Below are positions 12,003 through 20,629 of a DNA stretch of 64,000 nt, one piece after another. This DNA is from Candidatus Nitrosomarinus catalina. GTDB lineage: Archaea; Thermoproteota; Nitrososphaeria; Nitrososphaerales; Nitrosopumilaceae. The notes beneath the pieces are model-generated. The model was not told the DNA's origin, ran no database searches, and saw only the letters and a program-made list of their open reading frames with translations. The stretch spans positions 1,066,681 through 1,130,680 of the forward strand of contig NZ_CP021324.1 of the NCBI RefSeq assembly GCF_002156965.1, given 5' to 3'. Each line of letters begins with the position of its first letter. Position 1 is the stretch's first letter. The position numbers were made by a program, and so were the translations under genes.

Positions 12003-12782
12003 TCAAGAAATTATTTTCTTATTGACTCTATTTGCAATATTTGCAGCAATTCCACCAGCAGCAATTCCATTATCGATATTTACAACAGATAATCCCAAAG
12101 AGCAACTTTGTAACATAGATGCTAAAGCTGCAATTCCTTTTTCACCATATCCATATCCAACTGATGTTGGAATTCCAATAATTGGTATATCTACCAGAGT
12201 AGAAACCAAAGTGGCCAAAGCCCCCTCCATTCCAGCTGCAACAATAATACAATCAACATCCTCTTCAATCATTTTCTTTAAAATTGGAAATATTCTTTGG
12301 ATTCCAGCAACTCCAACATCATAACTTGTTATACATTTACAATTCATTGCCTCACACATTAATCTAGATTCTTCAGCAACTCCAATATCAGAAGTTCCAG
12401 CTGTCAAAACACCAACGGTTCCTCCATGGAATTTAATTGGTTTTTTAAATATCAAAATAGTTGATGAATTTTTTCCTGTCGAGATTTTTACTTTTAATGT
12501 TTTTACGAACAAAAGTAATTTTTTGTAATGCTCTTTTTTGATTCTTGAAACAAGAACAGAATTAGTTTTTTCCAGAGTCTTTTTAATGATTTTTTTAATA
12601 TCATCTAATTCCTTAGTTTCTGCAAAAATTACTTCTGGAACTCCCCTTCGTTTACTTCGATTAACATCAATTTTGGCAAAATTTTCAACTTCCTCAATTG
12701 AATATAATGTTAAAAGTTTTTTTGCATCTTTGGTAGAAATTTTTCCAGATTTTACGGATTCTAAAATTTCATTGATTTTCAA
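12003..12782 (-). CDS. larB: LarB, nickel-pincer cofactor biosynthesis carboxylase
   Basis: LarB carboxylates the pyridinium ring of nicotinic acid adenine dinucleotide and hydrolyses its phosphoanhydride, the first step towards the nickel-pincer nucleotide (NPN) cofactor. The 259-residue protein has an N-terminal helical part with KRRGVPEVIFAETK at about 45-58. A PurE-like domain follows: GGTVGVLTAGTSDIGVAEE near 120 and PIIGIPTSVGYGYGEKGIAAL near 200. It follows mdh by 33 nt on the same strand, and larC/larE diverge on the other side of mdh. Older annotations may call it AIR carboxylase or PurE-like, but the neighbours favour LarB. Confidence 0.88.
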   Translation of the reverse strand: MKINEILESVKSGKISTKDAKKLLTLYSIEEVENFAKIDVNRSKRRGVPEVIFAETKELDDIKKIIKKTLEKTNSVLVSRIKKEHYKKLLLFVKTLKVKISTGKNSSTILIFKKPIKFHGGTVGVLTAGTSDIGVAEESRLMCEAMNCKCITSYDVGVAGIQRIFPILKKMIEEDVDCIIVAAGMEGALATLVSTLVDIPIIGIPTSVGYGYGEKGIAALASMLQSCSLGLSVVNIDNGIAAGGIAANIANRVNKKIIS

Positions 12783-12815
12783 TAATTACAATAATTGATA
12801 TCTATACTAAAATGC

Positions 12816-13730
12816 TTAGATTTCAATACCAGAAAGTGCATCTTTGACATTAGCGACACCTTTGTCAAACATAGTTCTTTCTTCATCATTAAGATCTAAC
12901 TCAATAATTTTCTCTACACCGTTTTTGCCAATTACAGCTGGTACACCAATTGTAACATCAGAATGACCATACTCACCATCAAGATAAGTTGCTACTGGAA
13001 TGACTTGTTTTCTATCTCTAACTACTGTTTCAATAATTGCAGATATTGCATTTCCTGGTGCATGTACTGTAGCACCCTTTAATTCAATTACTTTAGCTGC
13101 AACTTGTTTTGTGTTTTGAACAATCTCGTCTAATTTTTCTTTTGGTAAGAAGGATGAAAGTGGAACTCCAGAAACGGATGAAAATCTTGGTAAAGGAAGC
13201 ATGTTTTCTCCATGTTCACCAATTACTAATCCTCTAATAGAATCTCGGGAATGACCAGTAGATTCATGAATAAATTGTCTAAATCTTGATAAATCTAACA
13301 TTCCACCCATTCCAAACACTCGACTTCTATCAAATCCAGATACTTTTTGAGTAATGTATGCCATTGGGTCCAATGGATTGGAAACTGGAATAATCATAGA
13401 GTCATCAGCATATTTTTTAATATTTTCTGTTACACTTTTTACAATTGAAGCATTAATTTTTAGCAAGTCCATTCTTGTCATTCCTGGTTTTCTAGCTGAA
13501 CCTGCTACTACCACGACAATGTTTGATCCTCTAATATCCTCATAATCATTTGAACCCTTAACTTCTACATCAATACCTTGTTCAGATAACATGTGATTGA
13601 TATCCATGGCTTCACCTTGTGGCAATCCCTTTGCAACATCAAGTAACAAGATTTGATCATCTAATTTCTTTAATGCTGAAAATAAAGCTGCATCGCCACC
13701 TACTTTACCAGATCCAATTATTGTAATCAT
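12816..13730 (-). CDS. mdh: malate dehydrogenase (lactate/malate family)
   Basis: Oxidises malate to oxaloacetate with NAD(P). The 304-residue protein has the Rossmann motif GSGKVGG at 6-12 with Asp31 at the end of the second strand (suggesting NAD), the substrate-loop Arg80/Arg86 (RKPGMTR), the NP motif NPLDPM near 118 and the catalytic His173 in GEHGE. The extra loop arginine fits malate rather than lactate as substrate. It is the first gene of a two-gene transcript with larB. A TATA box about 27 nt upstream of the ATG indicates a leaderless message. Confidence 0.92.
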
Positions 13731-13751
13731 GAAAATCAGTGCTAAATTTGA

Positions 13752-13760
13752 AATTATAAA
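13752..13760 (-). promoter_or_regulatory. TATA box for mdh-larB
   Basis: The minus strand reads TTTATAATT, centred about 27 nt upstream of the mdh ATG at 13730. That is the spacing expected for a leaderless archaeal transcript. It lies back to back with the larC box in the 89-bp divergent spacer. Confidence 0.55.
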
Positions 13761-13790
13761 TCTAATGAAATAGTCAAAATATTAGGCGAA

Positions 13791-13798
13791 TTTATAAG
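13791..13798 (+). promoter_or_regulatory. TATA box for larC-larE
   Basis: The sequence TTTATAAG is centred about 25 nt upstream of the larC ATG at 13820, as expected for a leaderless transcript. Together with the mdh box it suggests that the two halves of the nickel-cofactor locus share one short control region. Confidence 0.6.
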
Positions 13799-13819
13799 CA
13801 TTTTTGATAATTTTTAATC

Positions 13820-15046
13820 ATGGTTATTGTTATTGATCCACAAATAGCAGGAATTTCAGGAGATATGCTTTTGTGTTCTTTAGTGGATTTAGGAGCAGAT
13901 AAAAATCAGATCGTAGAAGGAATTAAAAAAATAGGAAAATTTCTGCCAGATTCAAAAATTAATAAAATTGATTTTCAAAAAATTCAAAAAAATGGAATTG
14001 AATCAACTGAATTAATATTAGAAATTGATGAAAATATTTCTGAAAGAAAAGGAATTGAGATAAAAAATGCAATAATTAATTCGATAAACGAATTACAACT
14101 TTCAGATAAAGCAAGAACATTTGCAGAATCATGCATTAATTCTTTAATTTCATCAGAATCTAAAATTCACGGCATTTCTGAAGATTCAGTTCATTTTCAC
14201 GAGGCATCAAGTATCGATACACTGGTAGACATAGTTGGAGTTACTATTGCATGTGAAAAATTGAAACTATTTGAGGAGAAAATTGTTTGTTTGCCAGTAT
14301 CAGTTGGAAGTGGAACTGTTAGTTTTTCTCATGGAACAATGTCCAATCCTGCAAGTGCAGTTCTCCAAATTTTCAAAAATTCTAATTTAACAATTAAAGG
14401 AAATGATGCAAATGAAGAGCTAACAACTCCTACTGGAGCTTGTATTTTAGTTAATTTGACAGATAGTTCAGTGGAATATTATCCTTCAATGAATATTAGT
14501 TCAATTGGTTACGGGGCAGGTCAAAAAAATTTTGAATCATTCTCAAATGTATTGAAAATTGTTCAAGGCAGTCATGAGAAAACAGGGATGGATTCAGTAA
14601 AAATTCTAGAGACAAATGTAGATGATGTTTCAGGAGAGATTTTAGGATATTTGATTGAAAAAATTATGAAAATAGGAGCAAAAGATATTTCAATTTATCC
14701 AGGAATTACAAAAAAAGGAAGACCAACTAACTTGATTTCTATAATGTGTGATGATGAAAAAATTGAAACAATTACAGATATTTTAGTATTGGAAACGGGT
14801 ACTTTAGGAATCAGAATATCAGATTCTAATCGATTAATTGTTGCTAGAACAAATCATAGTTTCTCATTAACCTTTGAAGGTAAATCTTTTGAAATAAATT
14901 ATAAAAAATCAACTTACAAGGAAAAAACTCACTTTAAAATAGAATTTGAAGATTTAAAAAATATTTCTGAAACACTTGATAAACCAATTAGAGATGTTGA
15001 ATTATTTTTGAGAAAAGAAATTGAAAAAATAGAGGAGACACAATGA
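13820..15046 (+). CDS. larC: LarC, nickel insertion protein of the pincer cofactor
   Basis: LarC is the CTP-dependent nickel insertase that completes the nickel-pincer nucleotide. The 408-residue frame opens with the family motif around AGISGDMLLCSLVDLGA. It also has HFHEASSIDTLVDIVG near residue 131 and ELTTPTGACILVNL near residue 205. The C-terminal half carries LETNVDDVSGEILGYLIEKI. In Lactiplantibacillus plantarum the protein is made from two frames by frameshifting; here it is a single uninterrupted frame. It overlaps larE by 4 nt (ATGA), so translation is coupled. Confidence 0.9.
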   Translation: MVIVIDPQIAGISGDMLLCSLVDLGADKNQIVEGIKKIGKFLPDSKINKIDFQKIQKNGIESTELILEIDENISERKGIEIKNAIINSINELQLSDKARTFAESCINSLISSESKIHGISEDSVHFHEASSIDTLVDIVGVTIACEKLKLFEEKIVCLPVSVGSGTVSFSHGTMSNPASAVLQIFKNSNLTIKGNDANEELTTPTGACILVNLTDSSVEYYPSMNISSIGYGAGQKNFESFSNVLKIVQGSHEKTGMDSVKILETNVDDVSGEILGYLIEKIMKIGAKDISIYPGITKKGRPTNLISIMCDDEKIETITDILVLETGTLGIRISDSNRLIVARTNHSFSLTFEGKSFEINYKKSTYKEKTHFKIEFEDLKNISETLDKPIRDVELFLRKEIEKIEETQ

Positions 15047-15840
15047 CAAAATTAGATAATTTAGTAAAATGGTTTGAAGATAAAAACAAAGTAATGATTG
15101 CATTGTCAGGGGGTGTAGACAGTGCAGTTGTAGCATATGCTGCTTTTCAAGCATTAGGAAATTCTGCAATTGCAGTTACTGCAGATTACAAAACTTTGTC
15201 ACAAGAAGAACTTCTATCAGCAAAACAAGTTTGTTCAGAAATAGGCATTGAACAAATGATTTTAGATTATAGTGAATTAGAAAACGAAGATTTTGTTAAA
15301 AATGACTCAAATCGGTGTTTTCATTGTAGAATGGAGTTAGGAGATCATTTAATCAAATTAGCTAAAACACATTGTGTAGAAATCATAGTTGATGGAACCA
15401 ATATAGATGATTTAGGTGATTATCGTCCAGGAATTCAAGCCCTAAAAGAAAATGGAATTCGAAGTCCACTTGTAGAAACAAAATTTATCAAATCAGAGAT
15501 TCGAGATATTGCTAAATCTGTTGGATTGTCTGTTCATGATAGACCAGCAAATTCATGTTTAGCATCTAGAATTCCCTGGGGTCAAAGAGTAACTGCAGAA
15601 AGACTAACTCGAATTGAATTAGGTGAGACTCTTGTTAAACAGATTACCAAACTAAAACAAGTTAGAGTCAGAGACATTCAAGGTTGTGCAAAAATTGAAG
15701 TAGATAAAGAAAGAATATCAATTTTTGATGAGAACATCATTAATCAATTAAGTGAAAAATTGAAAGTGATTGGATTTACTTCTGTTGAGATAGATAAAGA
15801 CGGATACAAGCCTGGAAAAATTAATGTGATTTCAAATTGA
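15043..15840 (+). CDS. larE: LarE, sulfur transferase of nickel-pincer cofactor synthesis
   Basis: LarE adenylates the pyridinium dicarboxylate and replaces the oxygens with sulfur. The 265-residue protein has the PP-loop SGGVDS at 22-27. Three cysteines stand out: Cys92 and Cys95 (NRCFHCRMEL) and Cys172 (ANSCLASR). One Cys at the last site is the sacrificial sulfur donor in some LarE proteins. Three cysteines are expected for the class that carries a [4Fe-4S] cluster, so a catalytic rather than sacrificial enzyme is likely. A GGAG site lies just upstream of the ATG. The stop overlaps the next start (TTGA). Confidence 0.9.
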   Translation: MTKLDNLVKWFEDKNKVMIALSGGVDSAVVAYAAFQALGNSAIAVTADYKTLSQEELLSAKQVCSEIGIEQMILDYSELENEDFVKNDSNRCFHCRMELGDHLIKLAKTHCVEIIVDGTNIDDLGDYRPGIQALKENGIRSPLVETKFIKSEIRDIAKSVGLSVHDRPANSCLASRIPWGQRVTAERLTRIELGETLVKQITKLKQVRVRDIQGCAKIEVDKERISIFDENIINQLSEKLKVIGFTSVEIDKDGYKPGKINVISN

Positions 15841-17006
15841 TCTATTTAGATAATGCAGCATCAACACGAATTCATGATGATGTATTAAATTCAATGTTAC
15901 CCTATCTTAAGGAACAATATGGAAATCCATCATCAATACATAAACAAGGGAGATTAACACGTAAGGCCGTCAATAAAGCACGAAAACAAATTGCATCTAT
16001 TATTAATGCAGATCCTGCAGAAATTTTGATTACATCTGGAGGAACAGAATCTAACAATACAGCGCTAAATGGAATTTCATCACAATTTCCATCTAGTCAT
16101 ATTATTACAACATCTATTGAACATGATGCAGTTTTAGAACCTTGTAAAAAATTGAGTTCAAAAGGATTCAAAGTAGATTATCTGCCAGTAGATAAATTTG
16201 GTATGATCAATACATTAGATTTAGAAAATGCAATTTCTGAAAAAACAAGTGTTGTTTCAGTGATGTTTGGAAATAATGAAGTTGGAACAATTCAACCAAT
16301 TCAAAAAATTGCCAAAATTTGCCATGAAAATCAAATTATTTTTCATACAGATGCAGTTCAAGCTGTAGGAAAGATTCCCGTAGATGTCAAAGAATTAGAT
16401 GTAGATTTACTATCAATTTCATCTCATAAACTTCATGGTCCCAAAGGAATTGGGGCATTATACATCAAAAACGGAGTAAAGATAGATCCTATGATTTTGG
16501 GAGGAGGGCAAGAATTCAGGTTAAGATCTGGGACTGAAAATGTTGCAAATATTGTGGGATTTGGTCAAGCATGTGAAATTGCACAAAATCATCTAGATGA
16601 AAATATCTTATGGATAAAAAAACTTCAATCTCAACTAGTCAAAAAAGTATTAGATGAAATTCCGCAAGTTACTTTCAACGGTCACGTAGATTACAGATTA
16701 GCCAATAATGCTCATTTTACATTTTTAGGAATTAATGGGGAAGACCTCATTATCAAATTGGATGAATATGGAATTGCTGCATCTACTGGCTCAGCATGTT
16801 CAGTTAATACTCAAAAAGCATCACATGTTTTAAAATCAATGGGATTTTCTTTGGAACAAATTACAGGTTCTTTACGATTAACTGTAGGGATTTTGAATAC
16901 AGAAAATGAGATTAATGAAACGGTAGAAATTCTCAAAAAAGTGATTGAAGAACTTCGTGCAGTTTCACCATTCAAAGAAAAATATTCTTTTGAATCTAAA
17001 AATTAA
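15837..17006 (+). CDS. cysteine desulfurase (NifS/IscS family)
   Basis: A PLP enzyme that removes sulfur from cysteine and passes it on as persulfide. The 389-residue protein has YLDNAAST at 3-10, the PLP-binding Lys198 in SSHKLHGPKG, RSGTENV near 230 and the persulfide-forming Cys321 in STGSACS. The TTG start overlaps the larE stop by 4 nt, so it is translationally coupled to larE. That links its sulfur product to cofactor thiolation or Fe-S assembly on LarE. It may also serve general Fe-S or tRNA thiolation needs. Confidence 0.93.
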   Translation: MIYLDNAASTRIHDDVLNSMLPYLKEQYGNPSSIHKQGRLTRKAVNKARKQIASIINADPAEILITSGGTESNNTALNGISSQFPSSHIITTSIEHDAVLEPCKKLSSKGFKVDYLPVDKFGMINTLDLENAISEKTSVVSVMFGNNEVGTIQPIQKIAKICHENQIIFHTDAVQAVGKIPVDVKELDVDLLSISSHKLHGPKGIGALYIKNGVKIDPMILGGGQEFRLRSGTENVANIVGFGQACEIAQNHLDENILWIKKLQSQLVKKVLDEIPQVTFNGHVDYRLANNAHFTFLGINGEDLIIKLDEYGIAASTGSACSVNTQKASHVLKSMGFSLEQITGSLRLTVGILNTENEINETVEILKKVIEELRAVSPFKEKYSFESKN

Positions 17007-17821
17007 ATTTTAATTTGAAATTTATTTCGAGTTAGCAGAATTGATGCCATAATCCCTACTGTCAAAATTATCATAACAATTGTACCAAATTCAGGAATTA
17101 CGTAAGTACCGATAATTTGTATTTTTGAATCACCTTCCTCAAAATCAATTGTTAGTGTTCTAATTTCTGAATGAGATGTTTCCTCATTGTATGTAGTTTC
17201 AATAAGGTCACCATTTTGTTTTTCAATCAAAATTATAAAGACTTCATCTTTTCCATTTTGTTTTTCAGCATCAATGTATTTTCTAGGTAAATCTAAAACA
17301 ATTTTTCCCTCATCAGATGCATCAATATCTACAACTAATCCAAAAATATTTTCATCAATAGATATAGTAGATATTGTTCCACCTCTAATAGTATAATCCA
17401 AATCAAATGTTCCACTACTTCCTGCATTAACTTCAAAAGTATCAGTTGTTGTTAGGACTTCAGAATCAGGCGTATAGAAAAAAACAGTTTCTGCGATATT
17501 TCCTTCACCATAAGTTACTTTTACAACATATTCACCCTGATTTTGCCACATACTACCCTGTGCAAGAATAGGGTAAGAATAATTTCCATCTTTAGAAACA
17601 TTGATTTGTGCAATTTCAACCATGTTCCCGTCTTTGAATAGTTGTAATGTGATAGGAGTTTCGCCTACAATTATTTTAATTTGTCCAGAAATTACAATTG
17701 TGTCACCCTCATCATAAGTAGCATTATCAGTTTGAACAGAAATTAAAGATGTGTTTGCAAAAACAGTTCCCACTGGAATCAATATTAAAATAATTAAAAT
17801 AGAAAATATCTTAAGATGCAT
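17003..17821 (-). CDS. PEFG-CTERM surface protein 1
   Basis: A 272-residue secreted protein. It has an N-terminal hydrophobic signal (IFSILIILILIPVGTVFA) and an Ig-like/macroglobulin-like beta domain (VQTDNATYDEGDTIVISGQI at about 29-48). A second beta-rich part follows. The C-terminal PEFG signal (VIPEFGTIVMIILTVGIM) is followed by a basic tail. PEFG-CTERM tails are thought to be processed by an archaeosortase; none is seen in this window. Its tail differs from the nearly identical tails of the next three genes. It converges on the cysteine desulfurase with a 4-nt overlap. Confidence 0.85.
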   Translation of the reverse strand: MHLKIFSILIILILIPVGTVFANTSLISVQTDNATYDEGDTIVISGQIKIIVGETPITLQLFKDGNMVEIAQINVSKDGNYSYPILAQGSMWQNQGEYVVKVTYGEGNIAETVFFYTPDSEVLTTTDTFEVNAGSSGTFDLDYTIRGGTISTISIDENIFGLVVDIDASDEGKIVLDLPRKYIDAEKQNGKDEVFIILIEKQNGDLIETTYNEETSHSEIRTLTIDFEEGDSKIQIIGTYVIPEFGTIVMIILTVGIMASILLTRNKFQIKI

Positions 17822-17860
17822 AGTTTTTCAAAGAGAAATTTGTATATCTCTTTTACTATT

Positions 17861-18029
17861 AAAAATAAAAAATGAAAAAAAGTTGTAATTTTAGTATCTT
17901 GGAACGATGCTAAGTCTTGATTTTGCAGAGATTGCAACTATTGAGATAATTGCGACTGCTAGAATCATGGCTGCAATTGTACCAAACTCTGGAATTACAA
18001 AGGTACCGATAATTTCAATTTGTTCAGTT
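17861..18029. repeat. PEFG tail repeat, copy A
   Basis: Covers the 3' end of PEFG gene 2 and its downstream A-rich flank. Bases 17909-18029 match 19736-19856 base for base by eye (about 121 bp). Bases 17861-17994 match copy B except for one position near 17882. Confidence 0.85.
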
Positions 18030-18718
18030 TCTGCACCAAATGGAACGATAACTGTGTTACCGTTAATTTCTGCATCATCTGATTCCTCGCCATCAACTAA
18101 TACCATAAAGATACCTTTTTGTGTTGATTCTGAAGGACTGATTGTCAATACACCATCATCCATTGCATTAATGTTGATGATGACTGAATTATCATCTGTG
18201 TTTACTGTTGCACTTGTTACTTGTCCACCTGAAATATCATAAGAAGTACAATTACCTCCAATGCTTACTTCACCTGAACCACATTCTACATCATCGTGAT
18301 GCATATCATCACCATGATCCATGTGTTTTTTCTCAACAACTTCAACTCCACCACTTAATTCAACTGTGACGTTATTGTCTAAACTACCATAGTTTACTTT
18401 AATGGTGTATGTACCATCGTATTTCCACAAATTACCAGCTGTACTCATTGTTGTCTCAAAACTTCCATCATTTGCAACATTGATTTGATCAATTGTAACA
18501 AGTGAGGTCATTGGACTAACCACAGTAACTGTGATTGGCACATTTCCTGGAATTACGTTAGCTACTTGTCCTGTAACGGTAATAGTATCATCGTGACCAT
18601 ATGTTGCTGAATCAGTTTGAACTGTTAAAGGAAGATCTGCATGTGCTTCCGAAGCGAAACCTATGGTACCTACTATTGCCACTAGGGCTACTAGCATTAA
18701 CGGTGTGGTGCTATTCAT
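17891..18718 (-). CDS. PEFG-CTERM surface protein 2 with His/Asp-rich loop
   Basis: The signal peptide (MLVALVAIVGTIGFASEAHA) is followed by one Ig-like domain (VQTDSATYGHDDTITVTGQV). Next come a His/Asp-rich loop (HMDHGDDMHHDD), two nearby cysteines (DVECGSGEVSIGGNC), a second beta domain and the PEFG tail. I chose the ATG at 18718 over the in-frame GTG at 18742 because a TATA box at 18743-18754 would start the message almost at that ATG and because it begins the signal peptide cleanly. The loop could bind Cu, Ni or Zn. It is part of a four-gene array, with its 3' end nearly identical to the next two genes. Confidence 0.87.
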   Translation of the reverse strand: MNSTTPLMLVALVAIVGTIGFASEAHADLPLTVQTDSATYGHDDTITVTGQVANVIPGNVPITVTVVSPMTSLVTIDQINVANDGSFETTMSTAGNLWKYDGTYTIKVNYGSLDNNVTVELSGGVEVVEKKHMDHGDDMHHDDVECGSGEVSIGGNCTSYDISGGQVTSATVNTDDNSVIININAMDDGVLTISPSESTQKGIFMVLVDGEESDDAEINGNTVIVPFGAETEQIEIIGTFVIPEFGTIAAMILAVAIISIVAISAKSRLSIVPRY

Positions 18719-18742
18719 GTTATTTGAAAACGGGTTAGTCAC

Positions 18743-18754
18743 TATTTATGTATA
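18743..18754 (-). promoter_or_regulatory. TATA box of PEFG-CTERM gene 2
   Basis: The minus strand reads TTATACATAAAT. The expected start of transcription about 26 nt downstream falls within a few bases of the ATG at 18718. This decides between the ATG and the upstream GTG as the start codon. Confidence 0.55.
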
Positions 18755-18757
18755 ATG

Positions 18758-18891
18758 AAAAATAAAAAATGAAAAAAATTTGTAATTTTAGTATCTTGGA
18801 ACGATGCTAAGTCTTGATTTTGCAGAGATTGCAACTATTGAGATAATTGCGACTGCTAGAATCATGGCTGCAATTGTACCAAACTCTGGAA
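18758..18891. repeat. PEFG tail repeat, copy B
   Basis: Covers the 3' end of PEFG gene 3 plus about 30 bp beyond its stop codon. It is almost identical to copy A over about 134 bp, including non-coding flank, and to copy C over an 86-bp core. Confidence 0.85.
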
Positions 18892-19654
18892 CTACTAATC
18901 CATCTGCTACTTCAACTTCTACAGAATCAATAAACATTGAATCATTGCCTTGTTGAGCAGTTACTGTGTATGCTCCATCTTGGGACCATAATGGACCTCC
19001 AACTAGGATATCAGCAGCAAAACTACCATCTGATTCTGGAGATACTTGGTCAACACTGACTAGATTACCGTTTGGAGATGTTACAGTAAATGTAACATCT
19101 TGATTGGTTTTGCTGGTTTGACCAGTTATTTCAATAGTATCTGATCCTTCCATAGCATTGGCTGAAATAGACAATCCTCCCATCTCATCAGATGAGGCAC
19201 TAGTTATTGCTATTGCTTCAGAGCTGGCATAGTTGTCAACCATACTAGAGTTGGTTGCAGATGTTTCTGCAGTCAATCCACCATTTACATCAACGCTTAC
19301 TGTGATGCTGTAAAGTAGGGATGTTCCTTGATTGGCTTTAATTTCATACATTCCATCTTGTGTCCAGTTGGAAACATTGAATTGTGTACTAAATTCTCCG
19401 TTTGCATCTGGGGTTAGTTGATCAACTGCAACAACATTTGATCCATTTGGAGATATTACTCTAAGAGTTACATCAGTGATATTTGATGTAGTTTCTCCAG
19501 AAATAGAAATTATTGTTCCATCTTCTTCAGCAATTGCTGTTAATGACATACCAGCGTCTTTTGCAAAGGCGTCTTGGTTAACCGAGGTTACGGACATTAT
19601 AGCTACTGCCATTAGGACTAGGCTAATTGATCTGGTTGAATTTTTGAAATTCAT
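18788..19654 (-). CDS. PEFG-CTERM surface protein 3 with two Ig-like domains
   Basis: A 288-residue secreted protein. The signal peptide (SISLVLMAVAIMSVTSVNQDAFA) is followed by two copies of an Ig/macroglobulin-like domain. Both contain the pattern SPNG-N-(L)V-(A/S)VDQ(L/V)-P, at about residues 69-79 and 193-205, joined by a Ser/Thr-rich linker. The C-terminus is VVPEFGTIAAMILAVA plus the hydrophobic helix and basic end shared with its neighbours. It is probably anchored or sorted at the cell surface; the ligand is unknown. A TATA-like stretch (GGTATATATACATAAAT) lies at about 19680-19697. Confidence 0.86.
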   Translation of the reverse strand: MNFKNSTRSISLVLMAVAIMSVTSVNQDAFAKDAGMSLTAIAEEDGTIISISGETTSNITDVTLRVISPNGSNVVAVDQLTPDANGEFSTQFNVSNWTQDGMYEIKANQGTSLLYSITVSVDVNGGLTAETSATNSSMVDNYASSEAIAITSASSDEMGGLSISANAMEGSDTIEITGQTSKTNQDVTFTVTSPNGNLVSVDQVSPESDGSFAADILVGGPLWSQDGAYTVTAQQGNDSMFIDSVEVEVADGLVVPEFGTIAAMILAVAIISIVAISAKSRLSIVPRY

Positions 19655-19717
19655 CTAGTTGCAATCACGTATGCTCGGTATTTATGTATATATACCAAAT
19701 GAAAAAAAGTAATTATT

Positions 19718-20629
19718 TTAATATCTTGACAGCAGGCTAAGTCTTGATTTTGCAGAGATTGCAACTATTGAGATAATTGCGACTGCTAGAATCATGGCTG
19801 CAATTGTACCAAACTCTGGAATTACAAAGGTACCGATAATTTCAATTTGTTCAGTTCCTGCAAGAAAGTCAATAGTTAGAGTTCGATCTACAGAAGTCCT
19901 AATTTCTTCAAAGTCTACTTCTTCCCCATCAACTAATACAAAAAATTCATCATCTCCATCATTAATGGATGCATCCAAAACAGACCTTGGAATTGCTAAT
20001 GTAATTGAACCTTCATCAGTTGTTTCAATGTAAATTAACAATGAGACTGCATCTAAATCAGGTATCACATTTAGTAATTTTGCATTAGTAATTTCATAGG
20101 ATATTAAATCAGTAGAATCTTGAACTGAAACACTGGTTGCAGTAACTACTGAATCAAAAATTACAGAATTTTCAATAAATGAATCTTCAATTATTTCATC
20201 TTCAATTACAGAATCTTCAACAATTACTTCATCTAATTCAGTTACATGTGGATTAGTAACTCCACCAAAATTAAAAGAAGTGGTTGTAGAATGATCTCTG
20301 TATTGAACTTTAATTGTATAAATCCCTTCTAGATTCATTAATTTTCCACCAAGTTTAATTTCTGTACTAAATTGATCATCTTCTCCAACTGTCAATTGAT
20401 CAAGTGCAACCAAATTTCCATTAGGTGATTGAATAAGGATACTAAGTTGATCTCCTGAAACCATATTTGTTATTTCACCAAAAATTAGCATTGTTTCTCC
20501 ATCAGAATAATTGAGTTTATCAGTAGAAACTTCAATAACTCCATTTTCTGCAGATGCTTGAGAAATACCAACACTTGTAATTAAAATCCCAAATAGTGCA
20601 AAAATCATTAATTGAGTTTTCACTGACAA
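19718..20629 (-). CDS. PEFG-CTERM surface protein 4
   Basis: A 303-residue secreted protein with a signal peptide (LMIFALFGILITSVGISQASA) and one Ig-like domain (VSTDKLNYSDGETMLIFGEI). A linker rich in Glu, Asp and Val follows (VIVEDSVIEDEIIEDSFIEN), then a second beta domain (SITLAIPRSVLDASINDGDD) like that of protein 1, and the PEFG tail. It is the outermost gene of the array. A possible TATA box (CTTAAATAT, about 20647-20655) fits a leaderless message starting at 20629. Confidence 0.86.
   Translation of the reverse strand: MSVKTQLMIFALFGILITSVGISQASAENGVIEVSTDKLNYSDGETMLIFGEITNMVSGDQLSILIQSPNGNLVALDQLTVGEDDQFSTEIKLGGKLMNLEGIYTIKVQYRDHSTTTSFNFGGVTNPHVTELDEVIVEDSVIEDEIIEDSFIENSVIFDSVVTATSVSVQDSTDLISYEITNAKLLNVIPDLDAVSLLIYIETTDEGSITLAIPRSVLDASINDGDDEFFVLVDGEEVDFEEIRTSVDRTLTIDFLAGTEQIEIIGTFVIPEFGTIAAMILAVAIISIVAISAKSRLSLLSRY
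19736..19856. repeat. PEFG tail repeat, copy C
   Basis: Covers the 3' end of PEFG gene 4. The 86-bp core is shared with copies A and B, and identity with copy A extends into the preceding beta domain, about 121 bp in all. Confidence 0.85.

Follow-up and report, generated by a model that had tools for sequence, protein, structure and literature searches.

A larB-larC-larE locus without larA, linked to malate dehydrogenase, in Candidatus Nitrosomarinus catalina and other ammonia-oxidising archaea

The lactate racemase operon of Lactiplantibacillus plantarum holds LarA together with LarB, LarC and LarE, and to our knowledge only racemases and epimerases of the LarA family use the nickel-pincer nucleotide (NPN). 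Genomes with larB, larC and larE but without larA, many of them cyanobacterial, are put at about 15% in PMC11796402, where non-LarA clients are inferred, and larBCE has been noted in Haloferax volcanii (PMC8305020); each paper given here by PMC number is cited for a part of its text. Here we describe the locus at positions 12,003 to 17,006 of a 64,000 nucleotide stretch (the window; contig NZ_CP021324.1, positions 1,066,681 to 1,130,680) of Candidatus Nitrosomarinus catalina, whose genome is a single contig of 1.36 Mb, 98.9% complete. The locus likewise encodes LarB, LarC and LarE, but unlike the L. plantarum operon it has no LarA and contains genes for a malate dehydrogenase (mdh) and a cysteine desulfurase. 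It has the same pathway as cyanobacteria and Haloferax, likewise without a LarA client, but in contrast to these the pathway is near-universal in one physiological group and is tied to mdh, and usually to the desulfurase, in a conserved block. LarA is present in ammonia oxidisers of deep-sea sediment, clades NP-theta, -delta and -iota (PMC8397731), whereas it is absent from the genome studied here. No paper was found on near-universal larBCE in ammonia-oxidising archaea or on its linkage to mdh, in a search that left subscription journals and preprints mostly uncovered.

An earlier reading made from the letters of the window (the sequence-only reading) had proposed an NPN locus that has mdh and desulfurase genes beside it but no adjacent LarA, and had called it unusual for an ammonia oxidiser. 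The locus and its linkages stood, but not its unusualness within the group. A genome-wide search found archaeal AmoA, therefore the label ammonia oxidiser is correct, and a search with PF09861 extended to the whole genome gave no LarA match, so that a complete lactate racemase system is absent. We then counted Lar genes in 121 genomes of the host's order (families labelled f1 to f17; own family n = 24). Left out of the counts were sub-cut-off LarB and LarE matches, three LarC pieces that were short or secondary, the second piece wherever LarB was split, and those PF00056 matches that were weaker or truncated. LarB, LarC and LarE were each over cut-off in 88 genomes and all three in 86, with LarA in 18; 72 genomes had the three without LarA, and 14 had all four. 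AmoA was found in 55 genomes of four families. By hand cross-reading, 54 of these had all three Lar genes, the single exception, a genome 67% complete, having just LarB, and PF09861 matched in none of the 55. A LarA-less locus is thus the rule among the sampled ammonia-oxidising archaea. The most likely reading is that the larBCE locus is a working NPN pathway with a client outside the LarA family; for the whole proposal, including an ordinary linked mdh, we put the probability at roughly 0.7.

We infer the biochemical steps from the known chemistry of these protein families, and infer also the existence of the client. LarB would carboxylate and hydrolyse nicotinic acid adenine dinucleotide (NaAD) to the predicted pyridinium-3,5-biscarboxylic acid mononucleotide (P2CMN). 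The three-cysteine [4Fe-4S] cluster of LarE, recharged by the adjacent desulfurase, would then turn both carboxylates into thiocarboxylates (P2TMN, the bisthiocarboxylic acid form), and the fused LarC would insert nickel with CTP to give NPN. The client, here and in most ammonia-oxidising archaea, would be an enzyme that does not belong to the LarA family; a LarA would share the supply in a few lineages of the own family; and mdh would be kept beside larB through old linkage, possibly with shared control.

The identities proposed for the three Lar proteins held, all scoring over curated profile cut-offs: LarB with NF033503 (247 bits, cut-off 175), LarE with TIGR00268 (262 bits, cut-off 150), and LarC, within one open reading frame (ORF), with TIGR00299 (165 bits, cut-off 90) and the LarC2 profile NF052512 (105 bits, cut-off 50), as well as 367 bits for PF01969. 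Solved homologues exist for all three. LarB and LarE align with their L. plantarum counterparts over nearly the whole length, LarC aligns with the full-length LarC chain 12bi_D, and its LarC2 part aligns to 6bwo, which we take to be L. plantarum LarC2. Unlike L. plantarum larC, which reportedly carries a frameshift, the window larC lies in one open frame. Cys227 of LarB, invariant in 16 of 16 aligned proteins, aligns to Cys221 of L. plantarum LarB (7mj0), presumably the catalytic cysteine.

LarE has the P-loop motif SGGxDS in the form SGGVDS, and its Cys92, Cys95 and Cys172 (CxxC...C) are invariant in all 22 aligned proteins. The best fold match of its predicted structure (mean predicted local distance difference test, pLDDT, 92) was the mmLarE-[4Fe-4S] crystal structure 8cnz (template modelling score, TM, 0.87), presumably of methanogen origin. 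The CxxC and the distant cysteine are common to window LarE and LarE of Thermotoga maritima; in the latter, the [4Fe-4S] ligands have the same residue numbers, with one passage writing Cys96, and cysteine together with a desulfurase sustains turnover of the enzyme (PMC9283937). In contrast to the three cysteines of window LarE, L. plantarum LarE sacrifices one cysteine, and the third cysteine is offset by one residue between the two, matching the description in the same source (PMC9283937). The sacrificial subtype, with a single Cys176 and no CxxC, was ruled out by the CxxC and this offset; from its cysteines and P-loop motif, window LarE appears to be of the [4Fe-4S] subtype.

The desulfurase scored well above cut-off with Aminotran_5 (PF00266, 299 bits), just above it with the PRK02948 subfamily (308 bits, cut-off 304) and just below it with the NifS equivalog TIGR03402 (509 bits, cut-off 530.75). 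Because LarE has the cysteines of the desulfurase-fed [4Fe-4S] type, the neighbouring enzyme fits as its sulfur donor, and is probably so used here. An overlapping desulfurase gene is what the [4Fe-4S] LarE mechanism would call for; T. maritima, by comparison, has its desulfurase genes a long way from larE (PMC9283937).

Purifying selection acts on the three Lar genes. The ratio of nonsynonymous to synonymous rates (dN/dS) was 0.075-0.093 for larB (6 relatives), and 0.148-0.206 for larC and 0.106-0.177 for larE (7 relatives), compared with 0.027-0.061 for rpoB, for which some comparisons were partial (30 to 1007 residues); dS was near or above 1, so all these ratios are rough. Selection on the genes implies that their product is needed.

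Several observations weigh against the proposed pathway and client. All three Lar genes occur in 32 of the 66 AmoA-negative genomes (LarA in 18 of the 66), therefore they are not specific to ammonia oxidation. The LarC matches of f9 are mostly to the LarC2 half only, and six of the 86 genomes counted as having all three belong to f9, for which the count is thus generous. Nitrosopelagicus-type loci have no desulfurase, and a second NifS-class gene (45% identity) lies elsewhere in the own genome, so the adjacent desulfurase may not be a dedicated donor. Homology is no proof of nickel in the product, and no client was found. When the window desulfurase was searched against nine genomes, three (G096, G069 and G037) gave only distant matches of at most 33% identity; the gene is not obligatory at the locus. 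At five f9 loci (L103, L104, L105, L107 and L109) we saw a LarC2-like ORF of about 190 aa, with LarC1 not seen there.

LarA does occur close to the host. In wider sampling PF09861 matched in 7 of 250 own-family genomes and in none of 70 genomes of f8, a second family of ammonia oxidisers. The f8 result disagrees with a lactate racemase cluster reported in all 19 genomes of NS-delta, which f8 may or may not cover (PMC10579303). The seven own-family genomes may be the sediment clades of PMC8397731. LarA of all seven has the motifs GMH[RK] and EPHQ[FY]AGYSGGYK, which align with those of solved lactate racemase. We take these motif positions to be catalytic in that enzyme. The larC gene was recovered in five of the seven, with mdh adjoining it in each, therefore the same source of cofactor is open to LarA in these genomes; no larC match was found in the other two, which are 84% and 63% complete. 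The LarA-bearing stretches obtained from two of the seven carry no other lar gene and no mdh. At L209, L210, L213 and L214 own-family LarA was seen by eye beside an ORF resembling an Nramp-type metal transporter. Separately, three f4 genomes (G003, G031 and G040) and one f12 genome (G036) have LarA with no LarB, LarC or LarE over cut-off; either LarA stands there with no pathway for its cofactor, or genes are missing from genomes that are 72 to 95% complete.

The arrangement of the locus, larB-mdh facing larC-larE-desulfurase, has the coordinates first given for it (Table 1), and the two TATA-like boxes in one spacer and the two coding overlaps of 4 nt (larC/larE and larE/desulfurase) are in place. 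For comparison 31 spacers were printed, loci without a detected start motif being dropped, and motifs were read by eye. All 16 own-family spacers among them have TTTATA[AT]GCAT ahead of larC, at a distance of 29 to 36 nt from the script-chosen start codon; upstream of mdh the window has TTTATAATT and the other 15 have TTTAATTA. The TATA-to-start distances suggest that the mdh and larC transcripts are leaderless, and the divergent promoters make shared regulation of mdh and the cofactor genes plausible.

Table 1. Features of the lar-mdh locus, in window positions
Feature	Position	Strand	Evidence
larB	12003-12782	-	NF033503, 247 bits
mdh, lactate dehydrogenase (LDH)-like malate dehydrogenase	12816-13730	-	NF004863, 385 bits
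Divergent promoter spacer, 89 bp	13731-13819		Direct reading and comparison with relatives
TATA-like box of mdh	13755-13760	-	First base 30 nt before mdh start codon
TATA-like box of larC	13791-13796	+	First base 29 nt before larC start codon
larC, LarC1 and LarC2 fused in a single ORF	13820-15046	+	PF01969, TIGR00299, NF052512
larE, putative [4Fe-4S]-type PP-loop sulfur insertase	15043-15840	+	TIGR00268, 262 bits
NifS/IscS-like cysteine desulfurase, TTG start	15837-17006	+	PF00266, 299 bits

Beyond the desulfurase, four tandem ORFs on the minus strand (17003-20629) have a hydrophobic C-terminus and a common PEFGTI motif and probably encode surface proteins; the first overlaps the end of the desulfurase gene by 4 nt.

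The gene order is not confined to one strain: a divergent mdh starts at most 2.6 kb from larC in all 24 own-family genomes. Over the whole sample this distance holds in 57 of 121 genomes from nine families, some counts being reduced by contig breaks. A divergent mdh is near larC in f8 (15/23), f2 (5/7), f3 (1/2), f7 (2/2), f9 (6/9), f11 (1/1) and f17 (2/2), and the single f6 genome has it on the same strand. In families f5, f12, f13 and f14 the full set of Lar genes is present in 20 of 21 genomes and mdh is near larC in none, and the 29 genomes of f4, f10, f15 and f16 have no larC. Among 80 named larC loci from across phyla, gene calling labelled 70 and missed even larC in the other 10, so the picture of neighbours is weak for some bacterial loci. 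A repeat at the DNA level found larC in 80 of 80, mdh near it in 17 (including the Bathyarchaeota record L148), and LarA, searched with six own-family queries, in none; only 29 of the loci reach at least 19 kb, and many flanks are short. The nearest named records were of Nitrosopumilus, Nitrosarchaeum, Nitrosopelagicus and Nitrososphaeraceae. One record titled Nitrososphaeraceae (L135), with a larC 65% identical to that of the window and the own-family gene order, is probably mislabelled or contaminated.

No common neighbour gene unites the LarA-less larC loci across phyla among these 80, and a client of that kind was rejected. Neighbours that were seen include a peroxiredoxin-like ORF (by eye) and a NikR-like regulator (profile on one locus). 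The latter, a nickel regulator, lies one gene from larC in Lokiarchaeota L157, L164 and L165, PF08753 having been run on L164. DUF362, placed in the same Pfam clan as LarA (PMC11770544), was also rejected as client: it is present in 20 of the 121 order genomes, and absent from the own genome and from all genomes of the four AmoA-positive families.

The mdh product scored 385 bits against a cut-off of 283 for NF004863 (PRK06223 malate dehydrogenase subfamily), and no further gene of the Ldh_1 family was found in the own genome (one PF00056 match). Its Ldh_1 domains and its motif RKPGMTR, the Arg of which we take to be malate-type, point to an LDH-like malate dehydrogenase, and it looks like the ordinary malate dehydrogenase of the host. 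Such dehydrogenases may also take pyruvate (PMC8397731). Motif comparison covered all 18 unlinked mdh genes. Among 10 genomes without LarB, LarC and LarE (f10, f4 and f16; one of them does have LarA), RKPGMTR was exact in 7 and GEHGE in 9; RTADMSR stands in two proteins of f13, whose genomes carry the three Lar genes and have mdh elsewhere. Linked and Lar-less mdh are split by two columns, residue 189 and residue 7, the latter being Ser in linked and mostly Ala in Lar-less proteins, within the glycine-rich nucleotide loop; descent alone could explain both. In f10 none of the 22 genomes has LarB, LarC or LarE over cut-off, nor LarA, and mdh is kept in 20 after exclusion of truncated matches, one of which is in a further genome. 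The mdh enzyme was therefore rejected as the cofactor-dependent one: with closely similar active-site motifs in Lar-less relatives it apparently has no need of the cofactor, and so the linkage is a lead to the substrate of the client, not evidence for it.

The linkage of mdh is old, and nothing shows the cofactor acting on malate. A passive linkage, in which the neighbourhood is inherited, is kept together by the common divergent promoter and has no metabolic meaning, is a serious possibility at somewhat less than even odds. The mdh tree, which took 10 of the 18 unlinked genes with one f10 row, groups the rows of f1, f4, f7, f8 and f9 by family, as vertical descent predicts, with f14_G046 and f2_G047 sitting apart from their families; mdh is single-copy in the own genome; and in f8 genomes G083 and G086 a distance of 11 to 13 kb separates larB-mdh from larC-larE-NifS, each half being intact. 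However, the five-gene block is whole though its left flank differs: rpoH/rpoB stand there in the window, and a different gene in most of the own-family loci that were read. In addition, some or all genomes in each of nine families keep mdh together with larC.

A client acting on malate or another 2-hydroxy acid, with mdh linked through a common metabolite pool, had been suggested in the sequence-only reading and would be compatible with a non-LarA client, but we regard it as rather unlikely. In its favour, besides the spread of the linkage over nine families, genes for EtfA, EtfB and an FAD-oxidoreductase lie between larB and mdh in f2, f6, f9 and f17, with a FixX-like ferredoxin in f9 (profiles were run on one member per cluster). 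The insertion resembles a known type, units of a dehydrogenase with electron transfer flavoprotein. It was read at L078, L079, L088, L103, L104, L107 and L124 as EtfA, EtfB and FixC/ETF-QO-like genes. The NPN enzymes named in PMC7583248 and PMC11770544 act on 2-hydroxy acids, malate racemases being called the largest group. On the other side there is no candidate enzyme, the mdh motifs are similar in the Lar-less genomes, f10 mostly keeps mdh alone, and the Lar genes of f5, f12, f13 and f14 have no mdh near larC.

It is improbable that the client is a LarA homologue so divergent that Pfam misses it: the LarA superfamily is diverse and remote members can escape profile searches, but PF09861 does find LarA in the order and in the own family, and yields no first-look candidate in the own genome, where DUF362 is absent too. 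Less probable still is the reading that the pathway has become a relic, or that its product is a thionucleotide with no metal or a different metal and serves some other purpose. This would suit the lack of a known client and a nickel specificity not settled by homology, but not the purifying selection, the intact fused LarC, the conserved cysteines of LarB and LarE and the NikR-like regulator near larC in three Lokiarchaeota loci.

The locus is real, old and selected; its pathway is known, and its setting brings the known question of non-LarA clients into sharper focus. We judge as evenly balanced the possibility that a second class of nickel-pincer enzyme, distinct from LarA, belongs to the core metabolism of ammonia-oxidising archaea, which would depend on it; such an enzyme might transfer hydride close to the malate/oxaloacetate node of carbon fixation, with the mdh-larBCE block as its signpost. 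A LarA-less pathway in nearly all sampled ammonia-oxidising archaea makes the question testable in cultured organisms with small genomes, and a non-LarA client would add a core use of nickel to the group that drives marine nitrification.

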